From Calditrichia bacterium (GTDB taxonomy: Bacteria > Calditrichota > Calditrichia > RBG-13-44-9 > J075): a stretch of 64,000 nucleotides of DNA. This document shows, one piece after another, positions 1 to 4,309 of this stretch. The notes below the pieces were generated by a model. It ran no database searches. It saw nothing but the letters and a program-made list of their open reading frames with translations, and had not been told where the DNA came from. Position numbers and translations under genes: made by a program. The DNA is taken from the NCBI GenBank assembly GCA_028284905.1, contig JANQQU010000072.1, positions 62,001 to 126,000 on the forward strand. Reading direction: 5' to 3'. Position 1 is the stretch's first letter, and the number at the start of each line of letters is the position of its first letter.

Positions 1-2501
1 TCAGTATGTTTTATCTCCTTTTTCCAATCTTTCCATAAATCTTTTAATTCCGCATCGGATTGGATCATCCGATTTATTGTCTCTTTCCCGGAAATACTGA
101 TATCATTATAAATTTGCTGTAATTTCTCCGCATATATGTAAGTCAGGTTTTCATCCTTGTTTTCTGCTACGTTGTATTTCCGCGCGACAACTTTAAAAAG
201 AGATGGCCAGGCTGCTGCGGAAAAATTCCCACTTCTGAGCAGCGCATCCAGCACATCTGCGAGCAGCTGCCAATAAAGCGGCGCATCGGCCATTTCACTT
301 AGATCGAGTAAAAAATTCAATCCGTCCTTTTGGCCATCATGTAAGGAGAGAAATTTCAGGAATGCTTTTTCCAGTATTGCAGAAATGGCCAGGCGATTTC
401 CTTTGGGCAATATCTCCAGTGCCGATCCAACCAAAGCCAGGCGATCTTTGGTATTCGGTGACTGTCCATAGCGGAAATGCCAGTCGCTCAACGATAAAAC
501 CTGATGCATCCGCTGAAATTCCGGGACCAGCGATAGGTTTGCAATATCCAGGTCAACATTAATTGCCTGATTAAACTCCGATTCAATTCGGGTGAATATT
601 GACACTAATTCCTGCATGGCACCCTTGGGAAAGAGAATATGCCGGGAAAGCGCCACTCCTTCTACTGCCAGTTTCAGAAAAGATTTTCGCCGCAGGACAT
701 TCCCGCCAAACTCATGGATTAAGGGCAAAGCAGTTGCCGGTGCCATATGCCCTTCCGGCCATCCCAATTGAAAAAACATTTCGTAATCTTCATCGGTAAG
801 TATCAATAAATCATATTGTTTATATTCTCGTAGAGTTTCCAATGTCAGCATTTCTTTTTGGGGATTGTTCGCAATTTCGGCCCCTTTCAGCCGTAGCAAT
901 AATCCATAATCATTGGTGCGTTTCGCTCGCTCACAGATTTTCTGATAAGTGATCTTCCTCCCCAGGAAAGGGCGAATATGCTGCATCATTTTTTCACTGC
1001 GGGAACAGGCACTAACAATGCGATAAATGACGAGTTCCAGTTCAAAGAAGAGATCCTTCTCGTAAAAAACAGCCAACAATTGCTGTACCGCCGGTTGGTG
1101 AAAAGATTTTACCAGGTGTTTGCGAATAACGTGAATAATCGCCGATTCCAGCTGATTGAGCACTTTGATAACTGCAGCAAAATTCAGAATAGCAGCAATA
1201 TGCCGGGTCTTTTTACTGGCCAATAGCATTTTACGTAACGTCTCGACAGATTTACGGCGAATCCTGAGATCCGTAAAATTTTTCTGGATGAGCGCTGTTG
1301 CTTCCCGGATCTCGGAAATTTTACCATTGGCTAACAGCGTATAAATCACCCAATCGATGAGAAAGCCGAGTACATCCTTCCGGGATAGTGTATCATCAGC
1401 CAGCAGCGTTTTGAAGAATTTTTGTGTGGCTTTCCGAATATCTTCATCGGCGGCAACCGGTTGTTTTAATAATTCCATTAAACCAGTGAGCACTTCCCGG
1501 GATTTGTATAGTTTCTTATTTTCTGTGAATGCCAATCCGGCCAGAATATCATTTTTATCAAAGGCGGCTTGTTGCAGGGAAAGATACAATTGCATCAGCT
1601 CATCCATCTCCCGGGGTGTAAATGATTGCTCCAGGCGGGAGAGGAAATTCTTGAAGTTTAGCACCGTGGTAAATTGATCGTTAGCGTACCAATTACTCAG
1701 CGTATTTGCAAAAGCATTTTCCCGGGGCAATTCGGAAAATTTTTCATTGATGAAATCAAAAACATGATAATCCTGGAAGAATTCGGATTCTGTTATAAAA
1801 TGCACCGTATCGGGATTACTGCCGCAAATCCGGGTATTATTATGGGAGGGATTCGCGGTAGAAATGGTAAAGGACAGTTTTTCCTGGAGATTTAAAGGTA
1901 AGGCCAGGGCTACAGCCCCAATCATGATGGCAATATATTCTGCCTGATCGGCAATTACCAAATGCCCGTCTTTATTTAAGGCATGCTGTACGGCGCTCGC
2001 CAGGGCAGCAAAGTACGAAAGGCGGCTTTGCGTGCTCAGGGTTTCCCGGATGTAAGAAATCGGAATAGTATCATGAATATTCAGCGTTGGCAGAGAAGGC
2101 AAATTTTCAGCGGGCGCTTCCGGGTAGGCTTTCCAGAAATCACTATGCCAGCTAAATGCCGGAAATACATATTTAACAAATTCGCGGGGATTTTCGTGAA
2201 TAATAAATCGGGTGAAGAATTTTGCCTGGCGGGCATTTTTGTTGCGGTCGAGATAAGCAGTATGAGAAAGGACAGCTTTACCATTGGGCAATCGATAAAA
2301 AGCAAGGCAGCGATATACATCCGGTTGCATTTCCCAAACAGTACGGTGCGGCAGTGGTGCCGGCAGGGTCTCCGTCATTGCCAGTTTTAACTGACTGATA
2401 GTGGACTCATCCAGACCTGCACTGGGGGCCACAATTTGAAGCTCACTAATTTTGCCAGCCCCACTAACGCTGGCATATCCAATGGCTTGCTCAAACGCCA
2501 T
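1..2501 (-). CDS. GAP1-like protein (GTPase-associated protein 1 family), C-terminus beyond left edge
   Basis: The minus strand is open from an ATG at 2501 to the left edge, giving at least 833 residues. The start has a good ribosome site (GGGAG, six bases upstream). The N-terminus reads FEQAIGYASVSGAG, then QIVAPSAGLDES, then a stretch around HTAYLDRNKNARQAKF. This order matches my recollection of the N-terminal domain of the GAP1 family, which occurs next to GTPase or chaperone genes in predicted conflict systems. The remaining roughly 600 residues are mostly helical with no catalytic motif I recognise, which fits the middle and C-terminal GAP1 regions. It follows the FN3-like and GrpE-like genes on the same strand with short gaps, so they are probably one operon. 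No signal peptide or membrane segment is seen, so it is likely cytoplasmic. The family call rests on memory of sequence patterns, not an alignment. Confidence 0.6.
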   Translation of the reverse strand, partial: MAFEQAIGYASVSGAGKISELQIVAPSAGLDESTISQLKLAMTETLPAPLPHRTVWEMQPDVYRCLAFYRLPNGKAVLSHTAYLDRNKNARQAKFFTRFIIHENPREFVKYVFPAFSWHSDFWKAYPEAPAENLPSLPTLNIHDTIPISYIRETLSTQSRLSYFAALASAVQHALNKDGHLVIADQAEYIAIMIGAVALALPLNLQEKLSFTISTANPSHNNTRICGSNPDTVHFITESEFFQDYHVFDFINEKFSELPRENAFANTLSNWYANDQFTTVLNFKNFLSRLEQSFTPREMDELMQLYLSLQQAAFDKNDILAGLAFTENKKLYKSREVLTGLMELLKQPVAADEDIRKATQKFFKTLLADDTLSRKDVLGFLIDWVIYTLLANGKISEIREATALIQKNFTDLRIRRKSVETLRKMLLASKKTRHIAAILNFAAVIKVLNQLESAIIHVIRKHLVKSFHQPAVQQLLAVFYEKDLFFELELVIYRIVSACSRSEKMMQHIRPFLGRKITYQKICERAKRTNDYGLLLRLKGAEIANNPQKEMLTLETLREYKQYDLLILTDEDYEMFFQLGWPEGHMAPATALPLIHEFGGNVLRRKSFLKLAVEGVALSRHILFPKGAMQELVSIFTRIESEFNQAINVDLDIANLSLVPEFQRMHQVLSLSDWHFRYGQSPNTKDRLALVGSALEILPKGNRLAISAILEKAFLKFLSLHDGQKDGLNFLLDLSEMADAPLYWQLLADVLDALLRSGNFSAAAWPSLFKVVARKYNVAENKDENLTYIYAEKLQQIYNDISISGKETINRMIQSDAELKDLWKDWKKEIKHT

Positions 2502-2530
2502 AGTGATCTCCCATTTGCCATACACTTCGG

Positions 2531-2650
2531 TTAAGCCGGATTGGTAAAATCCATTTTACCAGCTAAAACCTGCATCGCTGTCTCATTTTCAAGTATCGGT
2601 AAATATTCCGGCATTCCTGCCATGAATGCTACATCACTGTAGTTTTCCAC
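2531..2650 (-). CDS. Possible 39-residue small protein in the GAP1/GrpE operon
   Basis: Between the stop of the FN3-like gene and the start of the GAP1-like gene there is a short open frame beginning GTG at 2650, or ATG at 2623, and ending at 2531. Its product contains AGMPEYLPILENETAMQVLA and ends in KMDFTNPA. It is acidic and looks like real coding sequence rather than random translation, and it fits neatly between its neighbours (27 bases after one stop, 29 before the next start). No convincing ribosome site is visible, so translational coupling would be needed. I do not recognise the family. It could also be spacer sequence. Confidence 0.3.
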   Translation of the reverse strand: MENYSDVAFMAGMPEYLPILENETAMQVLAGKMDFTNPA

Positions 2651-2676
2651 TCGTCTTTCGGTGGAGAGATATCATC

Positions 2677-3585
2677 TTATATTCGTAGTTTACCAGCTGC
2701 TGTTGGTAATAACTCATAATCCCCGGCATCTTCGGGATTCGCCAAAAATAGCCGAAAGCGCGTTGGAGATGGCAGCTCTGTTAAGCGAAACTGAATCCCG
2801 TATGCAGCATGCTCTTTTAAACGCTCACCGGCCATGCGGCATACCACTTCTCCATTCCGAACATGCGCGGGTAATAATTCCCCATCTCTGGCAATTAGCA
2901 AAACTTCCGGTAAACAATCAACAGGCTTATCAGGAATTAAAGTCAAAATTGCATGGGTTTTCCGAAAGAGTCCCCGAAAACGTATCGAATAACGGATAGT
3001 AGTTTTGCGCCGGTAAAGCACCACCGTTCGGCATCCCAGGCTTTCGCCGGGAGAGACTAATTCCTGCCTCCCGAAGTCCGTTATCGCGTACACCCGAATA
3101 AAATAATTTTGCCGTAAAGAGTTCTCTATCCGGCAGCCAAATCGCTCATAATCATGACGGGAAATCATCTTGGAATACCCGGGGAGAACATCTGTCGGAT
3201 AGTTTCCGGTAGACCAGCTTACCAGATAGCGGTTCACCATGCGATTAGTCTTCCACCGCACTCGGATAAAGCTTCCGTAATGCACAGCATCAACATTTTC
3301 GACATCATTTGGTTGAAAGGCGCGCTGCACGCGCAACATCAGGGGACGTACTTCCGGCAAATCAGCCATGTGGACTTCGTCCCAGGCTGCCATTATTGCC
3401 TTATCGTCGTTTCGTTTGATTGCGGTTTTCAATATTGCCAGGCGATCCGCCGGTGTAGTTACCGGCAAATCAAGTTTCGGAGTATCTTTCAGTAAATATG
3501 GCTTTGCGAACTCTTCTACCGGTGATTCCAGCCAACCGACATCGGCGTTCGCACTTTCCAAATAGGCTTTACTGTTCTGTTTCAT
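2677..3585 (-). CDS. Protein with helical N-terminus and FN3-like beta domain, conflict-system partner
   Basis: I chose the ATG at 3585 because GGGAG lies five bases upstream; an in-frame ATG at 3624 would overlap the previous gene by 56 bases without such a site. The product has 302 residues. Residues 1-85 look helical. Residues about 95-170 alternate strands in the manner of a fibronectin type III domain, with IRVRWKTN, YLVSWSTG and YFIRVYAITDFGRQ. A second beta-rich part runs to the end. No enzyme motif, signal peptide or membrane segment is present. The gene starts 17 bases before the end of the GrpE-like gene, so the two are translationally coupled. Its role is unknown. FN3-type domains suggest binding or scaffolding within a complex with the GrpE-like and GAP1-like proteins. 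Confidence 0.55.
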   Translation of the reverse strand: MKQNSKAYLESANADVGWLESPVEEFAKPYLLKDTPKLDLPVTTPADRLAILKTAIKRNDDKAIMAAWDEVHMADLPEVRPLMLRVQRAFQPNDVENVDAVHYGSFIRVRWKTNRMVNRYLVSWSTGNYPTDVLPGYSKMISRHDYERFGCRIENSLRQNYFIRVYAITDFGRQELVSPGESLGCRTVVLYRRKTTIRYSIRFRGLFRKTHAILTLIPDKPVDCLPEVLLIARDGELLPAHVRNGEVVCRMAGERLKEHAAYGIQFRLTELPSPTRFRLFLANPEDAGDYELLPTAAGKLRI

Positions 3586-4309
3586 CCAGACTCCCGTTTT
3601 CCCGGAAACCGTTTTTAACGGCACCGTTCTTATGGCTCACCGGCCGTCGATACCCATAAACCCGCACGCCTTCGGCACGAATCACTTTCTCGTGTCTTTT
3701 AAATCCACTGCGCAATCGGCTTTTGATGATCCGGTTTAATGCAGGTGAATCGGTTTCGACAACCGTGAGGGCTTGCTGAGTTTTCGGGTTAAAATCTTCG
3801 GTCGGTTCTTCATATGGAAAGACATCGTGTTTTTCCAAAATCGTTAATACATGCTGCTGAAAAACATTAAGAATTTTGATGACTTTTTCAACCGGAATGT
3901 CTTCTTCAGTTTGCTGAAAATGCTCAATGGTATTATCAAAGTCATCATAAAGACTAATTACATCGTTCAGCAAGGGCTTGACCATCTGTCCAGCTAAATC
4001 ATGCTTGAAAGTATCCAACTCCAGAAATAGCCGCTCGATAATCTGATCCTTATGCTGATCGTTTTTTATTTTTTCCTGAAATTCACTCCCCAGACTACTG
4101 ACGGAGGATTCCAGGTTATCAAGCTTTGCATGAATAGAATTTGGTATCGGTTTGCTTGGTGTGGCGTGGTCTTCATTGGATGTCTTATGAACATCCTGCC
4201 CATTGGTAATGTCATTTCGTAAATCATCTTCCAGGAAGATGATATCAGCAAATTTTTCTTCTACGTTGTCCGGATTATTCTTTGTCACAGGATTACCTAT
4301 AGCGCTCAT
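3569..4309 (-). CDS. GrpE-like nucleotide exchange factor, divergent
   Basis: The protein has 246 residues. It opens with an acidic, disordered stretch (1-60), then a long coiled-coil helix (about 60-110), then the pattern MVKPLLNDVISLYDDFDNT, which matches the GrpE helical region (LLPVLDNLERA in canonical GrpE). The C-terminal part ends in VIRAEGVRVYGYR, matching the GrpE beta wing. GrpE releases ADP from Hsp70. Canonical housekeeping grpE sits beside dnaK, dnaJ or hrcA; here it leads an operon with an FN3-like and a GAP1-like gene, so it probably serves a dedicated Hsp70-like ATPase encoded beyond the left edge. No clear ribosome site precedes the ATG. The Hsp70 partner is an inference. Confidence 0.6.
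   Translation of the reverse strand: MSAIGNPVTKNNPDNVEEKFADIIFLEDDLRNDITNGQDVHKTSNEDHATPSKPIPNSIHAKLDNLESSVSSLGSEFQEKIKNDQHKDQIIERLFLELDTFKHDLAGQMVKPLLNDVISLYDDFDNTIEHFQQTEEDIPVEKVIKILNVFQQHVLTILEKHDVFPYEEPTEDFNPKTQQALTVVETDSPALNRIIKSRLRSGFKRHEKVIRAEGVRVYGYRRPVSHKNGAVKNGFRENGSLDETEQ

Follow-up and report, generated by a model that had tools for sequence, protein, structure and literature searches.

The left edge of the 64-kb stretch of DNA that was analyzed (the window; C19:62001-126000, in a 100%-complete genome of 8.55 Mb) carries a gene for a GrpE-like protein together with a gene for a GAP1 protein, and raises the question of which kind of system these genes encode. The three adjacent minus-strand genes reported in the initial annotation are all present: the grpE-like gene (3569..4309, 246 aa), a gene in the position of an FNIII component, called here the FNIII-position gene (2677..3585, 302 aa from its ATG), and the GAP1 gene (1..2501), for which the best start is the ATG at 2501, giving a protein of 845 aa whose last bases are encoded beyond the window, with the stop about 36 bases to the left of it, near C19:61964. 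As had been supposed, the window cuts the operon. One more co-directional gene (C19:59946-61853, minus strand; L003:17946-19853), encoding 635 aa, lies wholly outside the window and completes a four-gene minus-strand operon in which grpE comes first. Beyond this fourth gene lies prs, which is convergent and ends about 20 bases from it. The gene ends had been described as coupled, which holds for grpE and the FNIII-position gene, sharing a 17-base overlap, but not for the FNIII-position gene and GAP1, which are separated by 175 bases, or for GAP1 and the fourth gene, which are 110 bases apart. The wider of these gaps (2502-2676) contains a 30-codon ATG reading frame, MAGMPEYLPILENETAMQVLAGKMDFTNPA, which may be due to chance. 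No remnants of a ZnR-DO-GTPase or HSP70 gene were seen in the intergenic gaps of the operon, and the window genes had no match among the PADLOC models.

The 246-aa protein matched the Pfam GrpE profile (PF01025) with 56.1 bits (cut-off 25.8; E value 4.8e-15) over profile positions 11-163 of 165. The GAP1 protein matched both GAP1-N2 (PF20013, E value 1.5e-6) and GAP1-M (PF20014, E value 1.1e-7), each above its curated cut-off, and these two domains are followed by a divergent C-terminal region; no further GAP1-N2 was found in the same genome. Since GrpE is normally the product of a housekeeping gene, an ordinary chaperone operon might have been misread here. However, the window grpE is distinct from the housekeeping grpE, which adjoins dnaK on contig C7, and the window genes carry GAP1-N2 and GAP1-M domains. 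These two results refute an identification of the locus as the housekeeping dnaK operon and leave such a misreading extremely improbable, while the earlier view of a predicted conflict-type GAP1/GrpE operon outside the dnaK cluster is upheld.

Operons of this composition have been described. As set out in the parts of Kaur et al. 2020 (eLife 9:e52696, PMC7159879) that treat these systems, GTPase-centric systems are defined by DO-GTPases and GAP1, and theme 2 of the GAP1-N2 systems consists of HSP70, GrpE, FNIII and DO-GTPase, with HSP70 and GrpE found in approximately 14% of GAP1-N2 neighborhoods and the FNIII protein typically fused to DnaJ or TPR. The same sections describe the TM-type DO-GTPase of GAP1-N2 systems as having TM helices, zinc ribbons and SH3, and report that tubulin and HSP70 components are lost in some of the GTPase-centered systems. 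In the model presented there, the GTPase-GAP1 pair is predicted to form a first regulatory level that is coupled to sensing, and the role of GAP1-N2 systems in conflict or defense is likewise a prediction. The combination of GAP1, GrpE and FNIII, which the initial annotation had not seen described in this form, is therefore already known as theme 2 in that account, and the novelty of the present locus is its reduced form. Like theme 2, it has GAP1-N2, GAP1-M, GrpE, an FNIII-position component and a homologue of the TM/ZnR/SH3 DO-GTPase in a compact gene set; unlike theme 2, it lacks HSP70 and a ZnR-DO-GTPase, its GTPase has lost its motifs, and its FNIII-position protein is without the J-like/ZnR part.

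The initial annotation held that this GrpE implies a dedicated Hsp70-type ATPase, expected an ATPase and an effector downstream, and proposed to look there for Hsp70/DnaK, GTPase or vWA domains. Extending the contig leftward, we found no HSP70, vWA or recognized effector gene between GAP1 and prs. With no Hsp70 downstream, a dedicated Hsp70 is not implied by the GrpE in this genome; of the two chaperone components of theme 2, the locus has GrpE and is without HSP70 (four genes, then prs). What does follow GAP1 is a former GTPase. The fourth protein aligns over most of its length with the TM-DO-GTPase of a member of the same family, Calditrichaeota bacterium HKST-UBA06 (G032; blastp E value about 1e-41), and the GTPase domain alone gives z = 16.9 against shuffled sequences, so that a homologue of a DO-GTPase adjoins GAP1. 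The protein is arranged as TM, zinc ribbons, degenerate DO-GTPase domain, TM and SH3_3 (E value 3.9e-6), with CxxC at 202 and 246. Its hydropathic segments (1-23, 25-43, 116-173, which has room for two, and 511-543) would accommodate four TM helices near the N terminus and one near the C terminus. The P-loop, DxxG-like and [N/T]KxD motifs (G1, G3-like and G4) are gone, with GESATDKAS, DDNSN and TNHT in the places of GGGYSGKT, EDPGSD and TKSD in HKST-UBA06, and the sequence of the fourth protein itself had no match to Pfam DO-GTPase2. The ZnR-DO-GTPase is absent from the locus and has no homologue elsewhere in this 100%-complete genome, where only matches to PF19993 below the cut-off were obtained; thus neither the locus nor the genome-wide search for ZnR-DO-GTPases yielded a DO-GTPase with intact nucleotide-binding motifs.

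Conservation of the gene set in other genomes, which had been proposed as a check, was seen in part. A survey of 40 genomes in the phylum gave matches to GAP1-N2, GAP1 or the TM-DO-GTPase only in the present genome and HKST-UBA06; the remaining members of the family matched neither GAP1 nor the TM-DO-GTPase. An alignment search of genome contigs for the TM-DO-GTPase, using two peptide patterns that distant relatives in other phyla may escape, also returned only HKST-UBA06, and a plasmid search with the TM-DO-GTPase and GAP1 of that genome gave no match. In G029, G030, G031, G033 and G034, different genes, or the end of the contig, lie on the corresponding side of prs. The HKST-UBA06 locus is, like that of the window, beside a convergent prs, and is distributed over two contigs: C220 carries HSP70, a 659-aa J-like/ZnR/FNIII protein, a ZnR-DO-GTPase and a GAP1 gene cut by the contig end, while C68 opens with what is probably the tail of GAP1, followed by the TM-DO-GTPase-SH3 (P-loop GGGYSGKT) and then prs. 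Since GAP1 is split between both contig ends, we infer that C220 and C68 are neighbors. The two loci have in common the FNIII part, GAP1-N2 and the TM-DO-GTPase-SH3. That of HKST-UBA06 is the fuller in having HSP70, a ZnR-DO-GTPase with an intact P-loop (GARNAGKS; PF19993, E value 1.1e-5) and a TM-DO-GTPase with intact motifs, and it contains no GrpE. No second GrpE was found in that genome at all, which means either a loss of GrpE in HKST-UBA06 or a gain in the lineage of the window.

The FNIII-position protein aligns only with the C-terminal 251 aa of the 659-aa protein of HKST-UBA06 (blastp E value 5e-29; z = 21 against shuffles). The N-terminal J-like/ZnR half is missing and with it any DnaJ or TPR fusion. 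By eye, the 659-aa protein has a J-like start containing HPD, while its double zinc ribbon match is below the cut-off and Pfam DnaJ gave no match. A Pfam search with the FNIII-position protein itself produced no FN3 match and nothing passing any cut-off, and its structure model (mean pLDDT 36) was not used. Beyond the N and M domains, the GAP1 protein has no detectable similarity to that of HKST-UBA06 (z = -0.5 against shuffles). Compared at the level of sequence, the window locus is thus reduced relative to HKST-UBA06, in that HSP70, the ZnR-DO-GTPase and the N-terminal, J-like/ZnR portion of the FNIII protein are missing and the GTPase that is retained has lost its motifs. The direction of this change would follow from one comparison, since HKST-UBA06 is the sole relative with the locus.

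Such losses might also be those of a decaying remnant, in which the engines (HSP70 and the ZnR-DO-GTPase) have gone, the other genes are drifting to loss, and there is no present function. This is a serious rival, which we judge possible and well short of an even chance. The missing components, the degraded GTPase motifs, the truncated FNIII-position protein, the wide intergenic gaps and the failure of GAP1 and the TM-DO-GTPase to match in other family members are all as decay would predict. However, all four frames, of 246, 302, 845 and 635 codons, have stayed fully open despite the loss of the GTPase motifs, and the GAP1 and GrpE profile scores are still above the curated cut-offs. The best explanation, to which we assign a probability of roughly 0.6, is that the locus is a reduced and remodeled GAP1-N2-type GTPase-centric (predicted conflict) system, belonging to the HSP70-GrpE theme as presented in Kaur et al. 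2020. Weighing against this reading are the reliance on a single relative, the dissimilar C-terminal region of GAP1, the difference in GrpE content from HKST-UBA06, the failure of the FNIII-position protein to match FN3, and a residue of GrpE that is considered below.

Clear HSP70 genes are found elsewhere in the genome, on C7 (dnaK, with its own grpE), C61 and C93. The C61 cluster (L017:6727-18717, about C61:124726-136716) encodes a vWA-like lipoprotein, a small TM protein, Tubulin_2, a 1161-aa MreB/HSP70-like protein, a 526-aa HSP70 and a 1156-aa TM protein with SH3. This cluster is similar to parts of GAP1-N2 themes 1 and 2, and no GAP1 or GrpE was seen there. A complete system might be split across loci, with the HSP70 partner, and perhaps the tubulin and vWA parts as well, supplied from C61: the HSP70 and Tubulin_2 matches are of part types that PMC7159879 lists for these two themes, and the cluster has no visible GrpE or GAP1 of its own. 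We think this quite unlikely, given that the C61 HSP70 scores 142 bits against the GAP1-linked HSP70 of HKST-UBA06, less than the 224 bits between the latter and the housekeeping DnaK. On C93 (L015:15289-17399), the gene for a 530-aa HSP70-like protein is immediately preceded by one for a 171-aa protein. The 171-aa protein has a GrpE-like look near its end and was rejected as a GrpE for want of profile support, the profile having been built on two sequences only.

When compared with E. coli GrpE (1dkg), the window GrpE aligns weakly over residues 62-217, and a C-terminal pattern is common to both proteins. Position 122 of E. coli GrpE is glycine in the wild type (it is D in the 1dkg chain), and the window residue aligned with it is not glycine, so that binding of the window protein to DnaK, or to any particular HSP70, is uncertain. 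The extra GrpEs of G030 and G034 were rejected as orthologues, the gene sets around them being different. Divergent grpE genes occur there in sets with repeat-rich proteins (L040 on C7 of G034; L041 on C327 of G030), the former adding a Clp-type AAA+ protein and a protein kinase and the latter two long HSP70s and a CHAT-domain protein; these sets possibly represent another conflict-type system. On C26 of G034 (L039:9175-9948) a lone 257-aa GrpE-matching protein has a C-terminal hydrophobic helix and apparently no HSP70 alongside.

How a reduced GAP1-N2 system might work can be suggested from its parts. The TM/SH3 pseudo-GTPase could act independently of nucleotide, anchoring the complex and sensing the envelope, with GAP1 docked on it, and the FNIII-position protein may recognize a ligand or partner. 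GrpE would let the complex use the housekeeping DnaK, or another cellular HSP70, in trans for an ATP-driven step, if there is one. In its most specific form, which we offer tentatively and regard as doubtful, the proposal is of a GAP1-N2 system in which a dedicated GrpE, commandeering the housekeeping DnaK, has taken the place of the system's own GTPase and HSP70 engines, with the membrane pseudo-GTPase acting as a GTP-independent switch.

Calditrichota is not named among the main carriers of GAP1-N2 systems in the parts of Kaur et al. 2020 considered here. These systems can now be placed in the phylum: of two genera in a single family, one has a fuller and the other a reduced form, each adjacent to prs. 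If the reduced form is functional, it would mean that GAP1-N2 systems can operate without an active DO-GTPase, and that the scaffold role of this protein is separable from its enzymatic role.
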